Shown here piece by piece: positions 40,339 through 45,989 of a stretch of 51,896 nt of DNA. The stretch's first letter is position 1. Every line of letters begins with the position of its first letter. The stretch spans positions 1 through 51,896 of the forward strand of contig CABYSP010000010.1 in NCBI GenBank assembly GCA_902521675.1. Direction: 5' to 3'. The position numbers and the translations under genes are program-made. The notes under the pieces were generated by a model that saw nothing but the letters and a program-made list of their open reading frames with translations, was not told the origin of the DNA and searched no databases. This DNA is from an uncultured Pelagibacteraceae bacterium. GTDB taxonomy: Bacteria > Pseudomonadota > Alphaproteobacteria > Pelagibacterales > Pelagibacteraceae.

Positions 40339-40902
40339 ATGAAAAATTTTTTCTTATTTTTTATTATCTTGTTTTCTTTAAATAATTTATCAAATGCCAA
40401 AGAAAATTTAGCATCTGTAGACAGCCTTTTTCATATTGATCAAATGAATTCACACGATGAAAATTTTGCATTATATTTTAAAACCCGTGAAAAAGCTGTC
40501 TTAGCTCGAGGAGAAAATTCAAATTATATTAATGATTTTCCAAAAGATCTTTATATTTATAACTATAAAACGAAAGAGTCTTTGCCATTGATTTCTTATG
40601 AATGGTTTCCCAAAACTGCAAAATATTATTTACAGGAATATGATTTTCCAGTTTTTCCAGATGATTTTGCATATTATCTTTTAAAAGATAATAAAACTTT
40701 AGTGATGATTAGTGCTGTAAAAAGTTTAAAAGTTAATTTTAAATTTGATATAATTGAGAAAAAACTAGAGCTTTATCCTGTAAATGGAAAATTTGATTTT
40801 ATTATTTCTTCGATAGCCAAAAATTGTGGACATTATGAATTTAAAGAACACTACAAATGTAGTTTTTATAAACCTTTAATTTCAAGTACCTTAATTAATT
40901 AA
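40339..40902 (+). CDS. Secreted protein of unknown function
   Basis: A 187-residue protein with a clear Sec signal peptide (about 1-20, LNNLSNA then KEN). The mature part is rich in aromatic and charged residues and has two cysteines near the end (NCGHYEFKEHYKCSF), likely disulfide-bonded in the periplasm. No family is recognised. It overlaps the 3' end of the convergent ftsY gene by 8 bases. Confidence 0.6.
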   Translation: MKNFFLFFIILFSLNNLSNAKENLASVDSLFHIDQMNSHDENFALYFKTREKAVLARGENSNYINDFPKDLYIYNYKTKESLPLISYEWFPKTAKYYLQEYDFPVFPDDFAYYLLKDNKTLVMISAVKSLKVNFKFDIIEKKLELYPVNGKFDFIISSIAKNCGHYEFKEHYKCSFYKPLISSTLIN

Positions 40903-41812
40903 TTTGAGTAAATGCCTCTGCGAATTTTTCGGCCTCAAAAATTTGTAAATCATCTTCTTTTTCACCTAATCCAAGTGCAATAATTGGTAGTTTATATTTT
41001 TTAGCAACAGCTAAAAGAATACCTCCTTTTGCTGTCCCATCTAATTTTGTCATAATAAGACCAGTTATCGGAATAATTTTGTTAAATTCTTCAACTTGAT
41101 TAATTACATTTTGGCCAGAAGTTGCATCCAAAACTAAAATAACATCATGTGGAGCATCAGGATCAATTTTTTTAGTAACGTTTGCAATTTTTTTATATTC
41201 TTCCATCAAATTTTTTTTATTTTGTAATCTCCCAGCTGTATCGATTAAAACTTGATTGAAATCATTATTTAATGCCTCTTCAACAGCCTTATAAGCGACT
41301 GATGCAGGATCAGAACCTTGAGATGATTTTGTAATTTGAACATCAACTTTCTTTGCCCAATTTTCTAGTTGTTCTATAGCTGCTGCTCTAAAAGTATCTG
41401 ATGCAGCTAGCATTACCTTGTTTCCATTACCCTTTAATATTTTGCTTATTTTGCCAATAGTAGTTGTCTTTCCAACACCATTGACACCTGAAATTAATGT
41501 TGCATTTAATTTTTCTTTTTTTTTGAAGAATTCAATATTTTCTAAAGGCTTCATAATTGAAATAATATAATATTTTAAAATATTATTTATTTCGTCAGTT
41601 AAATCTTTATTGGGATCAATTTTTGTTTGAGAAATTATTTCTCTTATTTCTGAAGCCGAAACAATACCAACATCAGATTGAATTAAGTAATCTTCAATTT
41701 TGCCTAGTGTTTTGTCATCAATCTCTTTTTTTACAACTATATCTCTTAAACCTGTTGTAAAAGCTGAGGCACTTTTTTTAAAACCTGATTTAAATTTTTC
41801 AAAAATTCCCAT
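40895..41812 (-). CDS. ftsY: Signal recognition particle receptor FtsY
   Basis: A 305-residue SRP-receptor GTPase that brings ribosome/SRP complexes to the membrane. The N domain is about 1-95 and the G domain begins with G1 motif GVNGVGKT (109-116), followed by DTFRAAA, DTAGRLQNK and TKLDGTAKGG. The acidic A domain of E. coli FtsY is missing, as in many Alphaproteobacteria and streamlined genomes. A positively charged amphipathic start (MGIFEKFKSGFKKS) is the lipid-binding helix. It shares one base with dapF and is near-adjacent to its partner ffh. Confidence 0.97.
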   Translation of the reverse strand: MGIFEKFKSGFKKSASAFTTGLRDIVVKKEIDDKTLGKIEDYLIQSDVGIVSASEIREIISQTKIDPNKDLTDEINNILKYYIISIMKPLENIEFFKKKEKLNATLISGVNGVGKTTTIGKISKILKGNGNKVMLAASDTFRAAAIEQLENWAKKVDVQITKSSQGSDPASVAYKAVEEALNNDFNQVLIDTAGRLQNKKNLMEEYKKIANVTKKIDPDAPHDVILVLDATSGQNVINQVEEFNKIIPITGLIMTKLDGTAKGGILLAVAKKYKLPIIALGLGEKEDDLQIFEAEKFAEAFTQIN

Positions 41813-42636
41813 TAAATTTTAAAATTTATCTCTTCAATATCTGAAACTGGTCCTTTCATATGAATACTATTGTTTTCATCAATTGAAATTGTCAATCTAC
41901 CTGTAGAAAATTCAATATCCACTTTATCATTTACCAGTCCGTTTTGTTTTGCGGCAAAAGCTGTTGCGCAAGCTGCAGTTCCACAAGCTTTGGTAAGCCC
42001 AGCTCCTCTTTCCCACACTCTAACTTTTATCAATTCTTTGTTAACAAAAGTTGCTAAAGTAACATTACATTTTTCTGGAAATAGTGAGTGGGTTTCAATC
42101 CTTGGTCCAATTTTTTCAATTTCAAAATTTTCGTTATTATCAACAAAAAAAACTACATGTGGGTTTCCAACATTTACAGCAGTTCCGCCAGAAAATTCGT
42201 TATTATTTTTGTCATTAATTTTAATTCCTAAATTATTCGTATTTAATTCTTTAGACAATGGAATCTCATCCCATTTTGTTTTTGCAACACCTATTTCTGT
42301 AGAAACCATTTTTTCTCCAACAATATTTGATTTTAATTTGCCAGATAAAGTTGTTAAGACAATTTCTTTTTTGTTATTTTCTTTGCCTAATAAATCAGCA
42401 ATACATCTTGTACCATTTCCACATGCACCAGACATTCCTCCATCTGAATTATAAAATTCTAGTGAAGCATCTGAAATATCATTTTTTTTAATCACTATTA
42501 GTTGGTCACAACCAATAAAATTTCTGTCACAAATCTTTATTATTTGCTCTTTTGTCAAATTTGTAATTGTTTGCCTATTATCTATGATGACGAAATCATT
42601 ACCTAAACCGTCCATTTTAAAAGCTTTAATATCCAT
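41812..42636 (-). CDS. dapF: Diaminopimelate epimerase DapF
   Basis: A 274-residue enzyme converting LL- to meso-diaminopimelate, for lysine and peptidoglycan synthesis. The two catalytic cysteines are Cys72 (SGACGNGTRC) and Cys218 (TKACGTAAC). Overlaps the ftsY start by one base. A minus-strand TATAAT sits at 42682-42677, about 40 bases upstream of the start, with only a weak -35. Confidence 0.96.
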   Translation of the reverse strand: MDIKAFKMDGLGNDFVIIDNRQTITNLTKEQIIKICDRNFIGCDQLIVIKKNDISDASLEFYNSDGGMSGACGNGTRCIADLLGKENNKKEIVLTTLSGKLKSNIVGEKMVSTEIGVAKTKWDEIPLSKELNTNNLGIKINDKNNNEFSGGTAVNVGNPHVVFFVDNNENFEIEKIGPRIETHSLFPEKCNVTLATFVNKELIKVRVWERGAGLTKACGTAACATAFAAKQNGLVNDKVDIEFSTGRLTISIDENNSIHMKGPVSDIEEINFKI

Positions 42637-42669
42637 ATATAGATATTTAACTTATTTATTGACTTTTTG

Positions 42670-42687
42670 AACCTCTATTATAGGTTG
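42670..42687. promoter_or_regulatory. Candidate bidirectional promoter with dyad, dapF/ffh
   Basis: The 18-base AACCTCTATTATAGGTTG region reads TATAAT on the minus strand (towards dapF) and TATTAT on the plus strand (towards ffh); AACC and GGTT form its flanks. No convincing -35 hexamer stands at the right distance for either direction, so this is a weak call. Confidence 0.3.
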
Positions 42688-42796
42688 ATGCCGTTTCCGC
42701 AAAAACATTAACTTTGTGGTGTCTTTGGAAACAAAGAGATCGACACTAGTCAGCGAGGGTTCGCCCACTAGTGCGTTACTGCTATGCGTAATAAAT
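42684..42796 (+). promoter_or_regulatory. Structured leader RNA upstream of ffh
   Basis: The 113 bases before the ffh ATG fold into distinct hairpins. Hairpin 1: GTGTC TTTG (42719-42727), GAAA tetraloop (42728-42731), CAAA (42732-42735), a one-sided bulge GAGATC, then GACAC (42742-42746). Hairpin 2: CACTAGT (42744-42750), a one-sided bulge CAGCGA, GGG, a TTCG tetraloop (42760-42763), CCC, ACTAGTG (42767-42773). The two share CAC at 42744-42746, so they compete or partly open each other. A third, weaker stem GTTAC/GTAAT (about 42775-42792) lies just before the start codon. The SRP RNA core (GGAAGGAAGCAGC) is absent. Confidence 0.65.
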
Positions 42797-44155
42797 ATGT
42801 TTGAAAATTTAACAAATAAATTTGAAGAAATTTTTTCTTCTCTGAAAAAGGCACCTTCACTTGATGAAGCTCAAGTAGATGAAGGTTTAAGGGGTATTAG
42901 GCAAGCCTTACTTGAAGCAGATGTCTCTTTGGATGTTGCAAAAGATTTTATTGAAAAAGTTAAGCCAAAAGCATTAGGCCAAGAGATAATAAGGTCTACC
43001 TCACCTGGAGATATGGTTGTTAAAATTGTTTATGACGAACTCGTAAATTTACTAGGCTCCACAAATAATGAAATAAACTTAAATGCAGTCCCACCTGTAC
43101 CAATGATGTTAGTTGGATTACAAGGTTCAGGTAAAACGACAACAACAGCAAAATTAGCAAAATTTTTAGAAACTAATAAAAAGAAAAAAGTAATGATGGT
43201 CAGTTTGGACATTTATAGACCAGCTGCACAAGAGCAACTAAGATCTTTAGGTGAACAGAATAATATTTTAACTTTACCTATTATAGATGGCCAACAACCT
43301 GTGGATATTTGTAGAAGAGCAATAAGTGCCGCTAATTTAAATGGAGCTGAAATAATTTTATTTGATACTGCTGGTAGAACTCAAATCGATTTACAAATGA
43401 TGAGTGAGATTAAGCAAATCGAGGCTGTCGTTAATCCAACAGAAACTTTCTTAGTTGCAGACTCTTTAACAGGTCAAGTTGCTGCCTCAGTGGCAAAAGA
43501 ATTTAAAAATACAGTTGATTTATCTGGAATTATCCTAACCAGAGCAGATGGTGATGCAAGAGGTGGAGCTGCAGTGAGTATGAAATATGTTTCAAACGTT
43601 CCAATTAAATTTTTAGGTATAGGAGAAAAAATAGATAATCTTGAAGTATTCCATCCAGATAGAATTGCAAACAGAATACTTGGAATGGGGGATATCGTAT
43701 CCCTTGTAGAAAAGGCGGCTCAAGATTTAGGAGAAGAAAATCTTAAAAAAGCCGAGGAAGATTTAAAAAAAGGTCAATTCTCTATGGAAAATTATTTATC
43801 TCAATTGAGACAAATGAAAAAAATGGGCGGTATTGAGGGAATTATGTCTTTTATGCCAGGAGTTTCTAAAATTAAATCTCAAATGGACTCAGCAGGAATT
43901 GATGAAAGTATAATTACTAAAAATGAAGCTATTATTTTATCAATGACAAAAAAAGAAAGAGAGAACCCAAAAATAATTGATGGTTCTAGAAAAAAAAGAA
44001 TTGCTAATGGCTCTGGCACAGATCCGGCCACTATCAATAAATTGCTTAAGCAATTTAAAATGATGTCTGAAATGATGAAAAAGATGTCAAAAGGAAATCT
44101 GAAAGGTATGTCTGATAAAGGTATACCGCCAGAGCTATTTAACCAATTAAAGTAA
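42797..44155 (+). CDS. ffh: Signal recognition particle protein Ffh
   Basis: A 452-residue SRP GTPase from ATG 42797 ([16 protein letters not shown], the usual Ffh beginning); an in-frame extension back to 42716 would run through the structured leader and is not credible. The G domain has [16 protein letters not shown] and [10 protein letters not shown], and the methionine-rich M domain that binds SRP RNA and signal sequences fills the C-terminus ([29 protein letters not shown]). It heads the rpsP-trmD-rplS run. No Shine-Dalgarno sequence is visible upstream. Confidence 0.96.
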
Positions 44156-44168
44156 AAAAGGAGAAGAA

Positions 44169-44696
44169 ATGTTAAAATTGAGATTATCAAGAGGTGGAAC
44201 AAAAAAACGTCCTGTTTATAAAGTTGTTGTTGCTGACAGTCGTTTTGCAAGAGATGGAAGATTTATAGAAAAGGTTGGTTTCTTTAATCCTCTATTACCA
44301 AAAGAGAAAAAAGAAAGAGTGGGCCTAGAAGCTGAGAGAATTAAATATTGGCTTGGTCAAGGAGCTCAACCAACAACTAGAGTAGCAAGAATTTTAGGTG
44401 AGAACGAACTAATGCCTATGCCTGCAAATGGAAATAATCCAAATAAAGCAGTGCCAAAAAAAGAGAGAAATAAAAAAGAAGAGGATAATAAAGAAGCTCC
44501 TAAAGCAGAAGCAGCTCCAGCAGCAGAAGCTCCAGCAGCAGAAGCTCCTAAGGAAGCAGCTCCTAAAGCAGAAGCAGCTCCAGCAGAAGCAGCTCCAGCA
44601 GAAGCAGCTCCAGCAGCAGAAGCTCCTAAGGAAGCAGCTCCTAAAGCAGAAGCAGCTCCTAAAGCAGAAGCAGCTCCAGCAGAGGAAAAAAAATAA
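44169..44696 (+). CDS. rpsP: 30S ribosomal protein S16 with repetitive C-terminal tail
   Basis: A 175-residue protein; residues 1-80 are a normal S16 ([20 protein letters not shown]), a protein needed for 30S assembly. The remaining 95 residues, of which 110-175 are built almost only of Ala, Pro, Glu and Lys in repeats such as [15 protein letters not shown], are additional to the usual 80-100 residue length. The tail is probably disordered. The gene has a strong ribosome binding site (AAAAGGAGAAG) and is 13 bases after ffh. A similar tail is on L19, encoded two genes downstream. Confidence 0.95.
44497..44691 (+). repeat. GCAGAAGCAGCTCC-type tandem repeats in rpsP
   Basis: Degenerate tandem repeats of units such as GCAGAAGCAGCTCC and GCAGAAGCTCCTAAGGAAGC encode the Ala/Pro/Glu/Lys tail of S16. 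Their base composition (high in G and C) differs sharply from the surrounding AT-rich sequence. Prone to slippage, so copy number probably varies between strains. Confidence 0.85.
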
Positions 44697-44710: not shown

Positions 44711-45397
44711 ATGTGGCAAGCTCAAGTGTTTACACTGTATCCAGAGATTTTCCCTGGTCCTTTATCTAAAGGACTTTATGGAAAAGCTTTATCAAATAAT
44801 TTATGGAAACTTAAAGTTGTAAACATAAGAGATGCAGCTGACGACAAACATAAAACAGTAGATGATACACCTTATGGGGGTGGTTCAGGGATGTTGTTAA
44901 AAGCAGATGTTCTTGCAAAGTCTTTAGATGAAAACAAAAATGAAAGTGAGAGAATTTTATACTTATCGCCAAAAGGAAAAAAATTTGATCAAAATTTAGC
45001 AAAAGAGCTAGCTAATGAAAAATCTCTGTCTTTAATTTGTGGTCATTTTGAAGGTGTGGACGAAAGAATACTTTCAACAAGAAATATTGAGGAAATTAGT
45101 ATTGGAGATTATGTTTTGTCAGGCGGGGAGTCAGCAGCATATGTAGTTATAGATAGTATTTTAAGATTGCTGCCAGGTGTATTAGGAAATGAAAACTCTA
45201 AATTAGATGAAACCTTTGAAAATGGTCTTCTAGAGTACCCTCAGTATACAAAACCTCAAATTTGGGAGGAAAAAGCTGTGCCAGACGTACTATTATCAGG
45301 TGATCATAATAAAATTAAAGACTGGCGTTTATCTCAATCTGAGGCTATAACACGCGACCGAAGACCAGATTTATGGGAAAAATATAAGAAGAATTAA
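44711..45397 (+). CDS. trmD: tRNA (guanine-N1)-methyltransferase TrmD
   Basis: A 228-residue trefoil-knot SPOUT enzyme that methylates G37 of tRNAs using S-adenosylmethionine, preventing +1 frameshifts. Conserved blocks are [37 protein letters not shown] and [11 protein letters not shown], with the knot and SAM site in the latter two. It follows rpsP after 14 bases; rimM, which normally lies between rpsP and trmD, is not present here. Confidence 0.96.
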
Positions 45398-45413
45398 CTT
45401 GATAAATATTAAC

Positions 45414-45989
45414 ATGAAAACAATTGAAGAAATAAACCAACATAACGTTAACAAAATTCTTTCAGAGAAAAAAATTCCAGAATTTTATCCTGGAGATGTT
45501 GTTAAGGTTGGTGTGAGAATTACCGAGGGTAAAAAAGAGAGAATTCAATATTTTGAGGGAGTATGTATTGCTAAAAAAAGCAGAGACCTAAACTCATCTT
45601 TTACGGTTAGAAAAATTTCCTTTGGAGAGGGTGTTGAGAGAACTTTTCCTTTATTTGGAACTTTAATTGATTCAATTAAGGTTATTAGATCAGGTAAAGT
45701 AAGAAGAGCAAAACTTTATTATCTAAGAGATAGAACTGGTAAATCAGCAAGAATTGCAGAAAAAATTAGAAAAAAAATTGGTATTGATATCGAAGCAAAA
45801 CCAGAAACAGTTACAGAGGAAAATGTAGCTCCTGCAGTAGAAGCACCAAAAGAAGAAGCACCTAAAGCAGAAGCAGCACCTAAAGAAGAAGCTCCTAAAG
45901 CAGAAGCAGCACCTAAAGAAGAGGTGGCTCCAGCAGCAGAGGCTCCTAAAGAAGAACAAAAATCAGAAAGCTTTACAGAAAAAAAATAA
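45414..45989 (+). CDS. rplS: 50S ribosomal protein L19 with repetitive C-terminal tail
   Basis: A 191-residue protein from ATG 45414 (an upstream TTG at 45399 would add five residues not typical of L19). The core ([53 protein letters not shown]) is normal to about 120 and sits at the 30S-50S interface. Residues 138-180 are an Ala/Pro/Glu/Lys-rich repeat ([18 protein letters not shown]) like that of S16 in the same operon. L19 is usually about 115-130 residues long. Confidence 0.94.
45838..45957 (+). repeat. Short tandem repeats in the rplS 3' end
   Basis: Units like GAAGCACCTAAAGCAGAAGCAGCACCTAAAGAA encode the L19 tail. They are related in both sequence and encoded peptide ([11 protein letters not shown]) to the repeats at the 3' end of rpsP about 1.2 kb upstream. 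Confidence 0.8.

Follow-up and report, generated by a model that had tools for sequence, protein, structure and literature searches.

A conserved leader RNA of the ffh operon in SAR11 and its persistence before rpsP in an alphaproteobacterial family without detectable SRP

The 113-base leader that precedes ffh in the DNA analysed here (the window, a stretch of 51,896 nucleotides from an uncultured member of the Pelagibacteraceae) is an element already known to Rfam, the ffh motif (RF01793). What is new is a redrawn fold, a wider reach through the Alphaproteobacteria and the independence of the leader from SRP. Comparison across genomes shows that the leader can do without SRP components: it persists before rpsP in genomes where SRP is undetected. 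It probably serves the gene cluster as a whole and not Ffh alone.

The match to RF01793 covers positions 42729–42781 on the plus strand and scores 56.9 bits (gathering cut-off 35; E = 2.9e-8 for the whole window); it is the sole Rfam match in the window above the cut-off of its family. In this score, in its site 5' of ffh (the ATG at 42797 lies 16 nt past the match), in its covarying stem with two conserved loop cytosines and in its SAR11 host, the leader is like the published motif. The passages of Meyer et al. (PMC2704228) that deal with the motif, published in 2009 from Candidatus Pelagibacter ubique, place it between ffh and dapF, describe one bulged hairpin with two conserved cytosines and suggest a regulatory role. 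The same passages give its range as every Rhodobacterales, Sphingomonadales and Rhizobiales genome then fully sequenced and report it as absent from Rhodospirillales, Caulobacterales and other Rickettsiales. The element described below departs from that account: two further hairpins covary beside the single published one, a rebuilt model reaches more than twice as many genomes of the class, and one family carries the element before rpsP without detectable SRP. An earlier note on this DNA had mentioned a metagenome RNA motif named after ffh; that motif exists and is RF01793. The note had counted a match to a known element unrelated to ffh as a refutation, and the element matched here is one that bears the name of ffh. 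The note had also placed a structured RNA leader in a 160-base gap between dapF, whose start is at 42636 (minus strand), and ffh. The gap is as stated, and the Rfam match, the covariation and a fold beyond chance (z = −2.1, with 6 of 200 shuffles equally good) all bear out the structured leader. The genes ftsY and dapF (40895–42636, minus strand) stand back to back with ffh, so that one short gap lies between the two SRP protein operons.

Covariation among SAR11 leaders supports a fold of three tandem hairpins, H0, H1 and H2, all on the plus strand. The alignment started from 134 SAR11 loci, of which 133 were used (L087 lies too close to a contig end) and 97 were distinct; dropping rows with N and rows at least 93% alike left 38. 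H0 pairs CCGCAAA (42697–42703) with TTTGTGG (42713–42719) and lies outside the Rfam model; 97.7% of its cells are paired in the 38 leaders, with two pairs showing two-sided and two showing one-sided changes. H1 (42718–42741) consists of GGT/ATC (42718–42720 and 42739–42741), a G·G mismatch (42721 and 42738) and an upper part, TCTTTG/CAAAGA (42722–42727 and 42732–42737), closed by a GAAA loop (42728–42731). Drawn as GGU/AUC plus the six upper pairs, it is 99.7% paired and six of its nine pairs have changed on both sides. H2 (42744–42773), the core of RF01793, is formed by CACTAGT/ACTAGTG, a CA/CC internal loop, GCGA/TCGC and a GGGT loop; it is 100% paired, with two pairs changed on both sides. 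When H0 and H2 are combined with the six upper pairs of H1, 99.2% of 912 cells are paired and ten of the 24 pairs show two-sided changes, compared with 5.4 in shuffles and reached by none of 500. The covariation score of H1 is 0.427 against 0.196 in shuffles (reached by 0 of 500) and its six two-sided pairs are reached by 19 of 500, the pair-count controls here and above ignoring the relatedness of the sequences. H0 and H1 have GG at 42718–42719 in common, so both cannot be complete at once; covariation cannot choose between them for these two bases because both are invariant in the 38 leaders.

This fold keeps part of what the earlier note had drawn, namely two stable adjacent hairpins with a GAAA tetraloop in the first, and replaces its bulges and its TTCG tip. 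The base then given to the first hairpin, GTGTC/GACAC with a GAGATC bulge, is 87.4% paired with no two-sided changes, and two of its five pairs are each broken in 12 of the 38 leaders; the GGU/AUC version is preferred. Similarly, the GGG-TTCG-CCC tip of the second hairpin with its CAGCGA bulge is 75.7% paired and again lacks two-sided changes, where the CA/CC loop and the GCGA-GGGT-TCGC arrangement pair at 100% instead. The proposed competition between the two hairpins for CAC (42744–42746) is unsupported because it depended on the rejected GTGTC/GACAC stem, and the bases truly shared are GG 42718–42719. The weak third stem proposed just before the ATG is rejected less sharply than these two: its pairing (62.3%) barely exceeds that of shuffles (59.8%), and between 9 and 55 of 500 shuffles equal it on the remaining measures, which makes it a weak hint at most. 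H0 and the promoter-like region upstream are features that the note did not contain.

A protein-coding frame, which the note had named as a competing source of the conservation, fails to account for it. In 8 of the 38 leaders no stop codon interrupts the ffh frame between a point 20 nt upstream of H2 and the ATG, and the spacing of H2 and ATG is spread over all three phases (19, 9 and 10 of 38). A GTG start at 42716, as given in the list of open reading frames, was rejected for ffh; the SRP54_N match begins at residue 5 of the protein that starts with MFENL, which we take to be the usual start of Ffh. No Shine–Dalgarno sequence is visible before this ATG, as the note had remarked, and such a word occurs in four of the 38 non-redundant SAR11 leaders.

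The reach of the element was followed through 385 genomes of the class. The RF01793 model matches 106 of them, and 101 of 118 genomes of the family to which the window belongs; R1, a model rebuilt from H2 and the tail of 79 class sequences, matches 240 of the 385, and since searches over more than 40 genomes used stricter filters, misses in these counts are not absences. A finder that demands perfect pairing located H2 in 243 of 245 loci (not in L209 and L218). The 79 sequences were picked from these 243 rows for a perfect 7 + 4 bp H2, which makes their 100% pairing a matter of construction and leaves the two-sided changes as the informative part; these are found at ten of the 11 pairs. Covariation, a check proposed in the note, is present both in the 38 SAR11 leaders and in the 79 class sequences. 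The opposed loop cytosines, which form a C·C mismatch, are nearly invariant (109 and 108 of 110 non-SAR11 loci, the two misses on the 3' side being a register shift of the perfect-pairing finder), while the position beside them ranges over C-G, U-A, G-U, A·C and A·A. Structure is also present upstream of H2, where 55 nt fold with a mean z of −2.51 in the 38 SAR11 leaders, −2.01 in 14 loci of the SRP-less family discussed below (f50) and −1.34 in 96 other loci; beyond the tail, a stretch of equal length folds no better than shuffles (z of −0.35, 0.30 and 0.06, respectively). Four loci appeared leaderless by RF01793. Two of these (G005 and G008) give weak R1 matches and have an H2 visible by eye, a third (G026) shows H2 by eye without a match and the fourth (G023) shows none.

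A draw of 398 genomes across the phylum gave matches in 107, of which 106 belong to the class. Spread beyond the class was considered and set aside: neither ffh nor any other operon gene lies in the 3 kb fetched for the lone outside match (G870, 29.4 bits).

The gene context of the element is almost constant. In the window the operon runs on the plus strand from ffh (42797–44155; PF00448, PF02978 and PF02881) through rpsP (44169–44696; PF00886, ribosomal S16) and trmD (44711–45397; PF01746, tRNA m1G methyltransferase) to rplS (45399–45989; PF01245, ribosomal L19), each an open reading frame. Among class matches with enough sequence, 158 of 162 precede ffh and four precede rpsP. For RF01793 (106 class matches) the next gene is ffh at 99 and rpsP at four, the contig being too short at three. 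For the additional R1 matches, taken best-first, ffh is next at 40 of 40, these being 39 of the 134 R1-only genomes and a second match in G007, and weak matches from the phylum draw precede ffh in 19 of 20 cases, the exception being the single match outside the class. G007, for which 7% contamination is listed, has two R1 matches, one before ffh (C595) and one that runs off its contig (C63). All 16 leader-bearing genomes sampled have the order ffh-rpsP-rimM-trmD. In 15 of them rplS follows, and in the remaining one the fetched stretch stops short of it; in four sampled genomes without an RF01793 match rpsP also directly follows ffh. The window has no rimM between rpsP and trmD, and none was found in four f50 loci (L238–L241), in contrast to the 16 sampled genomes. 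The rpsP and rplS products of the window end in long low-complexity C-terminal tails of Ala, Pro, Glu and Lys, and an f50 rpsP product (L171) is similar.

Upstream of the hairpins lies a promoter-like region (42659–42686, plus strand) with TTGACT at 42659–42664 and, 16 nt further on, TAGGTT at 42681–42686, from which a transcription start near 42692–42694 is inferred. Of 110 non-SAR11 loci, 109 have TTGAC at a distance of 40–125 nt upstream of H2, where 7.9 would be expected by shuffling; it is present in all 133 SAR11 loci tested, where it served as the search anchor. A generic promoter pattern scan of the window listed three other sites (2.1 expected) and not the TTGACT/TAGGTT pair. On the other side of H2, the tail (42774–42796, plus strand) extends to the ffh start and is U-rich in non-SAR11 loci, not in SAR11. 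The U fraction in the first 12 nt after H2, compared with the stretch 20–86 nt further on, is 0.52 versus 0.24 in 96 other non-SAR11 loci, 0.50 versus 0.21 in the 14 f50 loci and 0.40 versus 0.37 in 133 SAR11 loci. The start codon lies 21–31 nt from H2 in SAR11 and 16–292 nt from it in 93 other loci, a wide range that is easier to reconcile with an action on transcription than on the start codon.

The four cases in the class in which the element precedes rpsP all belong to f50, an alphaproteobacterial family with small AT-rich genomes (1.3–1.4 Mb in the six more complete ones; G+C 31–36% over the loci). The family is represented by 18 genomes (G049, G174, G270, G347 and G498–G511), of which 14 carry the element by RF01793 (loci L143, L148, L160, L171 and L238–L247) and four have no leader match, one of these being 96% complete (G498). 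The RF01793 matches in f50 are independent evidence; the R1 matches are not, as f50 sequences are among the 79 from which R1 was built. In all 14 loci rpsP begins 41–48 nt past H2, without an intervening ffh match, and PF00886 was found in both of the f50 rpsP proteins scanned. The SRP54 GTPase domain of Ffh and FtsY (PF00448) scores above its cut-off in none of the 18 genomes, and a candidate divergent SRP54 in G500 was discarded, its weak 20.5-bit match sitting in an APS kinase (PF01583, 219.5 bits). By comparison, PF00448 was detected in all 14 named controls, and above its cut-off in 19 of 20 other class genomes (0.6 to 2.5 Mb), that of the window included. One 0.6 Mb class genome (G017) has a sub-cut-off match of 17.5 bits as its sole SRP54 match. 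SRP RNA (RF00169) was likewise found in none of the 18, an absence weaker than that of SRP54 because RF00169 misses some controls (detected in 11 of 14, and in the window's own genome at just 35.3 of 40 bits). SecY is present in 14 of the 18 and in all six of the more complete genomes. The family has therefore apparently undergone a natural loss of the SRP pathway; no title among the literature matches listed reports such a loss. The place of the element before rpsP may simply be left over from a deletion of ffh. Among nine distinct f50 sequences, however, no pair of H2 is broken and two of 11 have changed on both sides, which suggests continued selection on the hairpin, though the events are few.

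The explanation that we favour, to which we would give about an even chance, is that the element is a 5' leader RNA of the ffh-rpsP-(rimM)-trmD-rplS operon that acts in cis, perhaps as an attenuator, and that outside SAR11 it may be a leaky terminator tuned by a non-SRP factor. The leader RNA would act on its own operon; less surely, H2 and the U-rich tail may form a leaky intrinsic terminator in most of those Alphaproteobacteria examined that lie outside SAR11, with a short leader RNA accumulating and read-through yielding the operon mRNA. Read-through would be tuned by a factor other than SRP, for which bS16 or bL19, both encoded by the operon, would be the first candidates. In SAR11, where the U tract has decayed, a role of the hairpins in stability, processing or translation would be likelier. 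Like transcription attenuators, the non-SAR11 loci have a GC-rich hairpin and a U-rich tail between promoter and gene; unlike attenuators, the leader has no known antiterminator fold. With the tail U-rich in other Alphaproteobacteria and f50 but not in SAR11, and with no terminator-like site listed by the pattern scan of the window, attenuation appears plausible outside SAR11 and doubtful within it. Leaders of ribosomal-protein operons offer a second likeness, as the leader here is conserved and precedes an operon with two ribosomal-protein genes; those leaders bind a ribosomal protein, often by mimicry of rRNA, and for this one such a ligand is a candidate at most.

It is also conceivable, if rather unlikely, that the element is an independent or 5'UTR-derived sRNA that stops at H2 and works in trans, with ffh expressed by read-through. 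Rfam files RF01793 as 'Gene; sRNA', and the element has its own TTGAC box and, outside SAR11, a terminator-like tail. Expression is reported in the passages that mention it, which list an 'ffH leader RNA' among the expressed sRNAs of Bartonella (PMC7717549) and an ffh element, MH_s5, in Mesorhizobium huakuii (PMC5596092); for Sinorhizobium, a transcript of ~120 nt (sm5) was predicted between dapF and ffh (PMC2573895), a prediction that, like the Bartonella RNA, speaks for the operon leader favoured above. None of these passages gives a functional test of the leader. MH_s5, at 352 nt as predicted and 441 nt by RNA-seq, is however longer than a transcript ending at H2, and it lies in an intergenic region coded Pb-19, possibly not before ffh (PMC5596092). 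Moreover, the class matches checked never leave the operon, and the SAR11 tail is not terminator-like.

We consider it unlikely that the leader is simply a constitutive structural element, a stabilizer or transcript insulator with no regulated switch. Such a role would suit tandem stable hairpins near the inferred start of a housekeeping operon, and no alternative fold is known, but the C·C mismatch and nearby core bases are conserved throughout the class beyond what the stability of a stem would need.

An autoregulatory binding site for Ffh, the function suggested in the earlier note, is improbable: ffh leads the operon at nearly all of the class matches checked and Ffh binds RNA, yet the element is kept before rpsP in f50, where no Ffh, FtsY or SRP RNA was detected and the protein that such a site requires is missing above the cut-off. 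The leader and bacterial SRP RNA are both hairpin RNAs tied to SRP by gene neighbourhood, and presumably have a GUCAG on the 5' strand in common. They are nevertheless distinct, as the note had held: a search of 42300–43100 with RF00169 up to E = 10 gave no match, and the genome has a separate SRP RNA gene (G000:C8:16990–17082; RF00169, 35.3 bits). Meyer et al., in the passage on the motif, likewise see no likeness to the Ffh-bound part of 4.5S RNA (PMC2704228).

The corrected three-hairpin fold shows which mutations an experimenter should make. The correction to the function matters as well, since the SRP-less family, as a natural knock-out, speaks against a model of feedback by Ffh and directs attention to an operon for which a 2024 review, in the part that concerns it, has no information on regulation (PMC10931766). 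We suggest, tentatively and from comparison of sequences, that the ffh motif may be misnamed. It may instead be the leader of an rpsP-(rimM)-trmD-rplS operon that senses a signal other than SRP, for example bS16 or bL19; ribosome assembly would then set the output of SRP protein in most Alphaproteobacteria, and the family that lost SRP would have kept the control.
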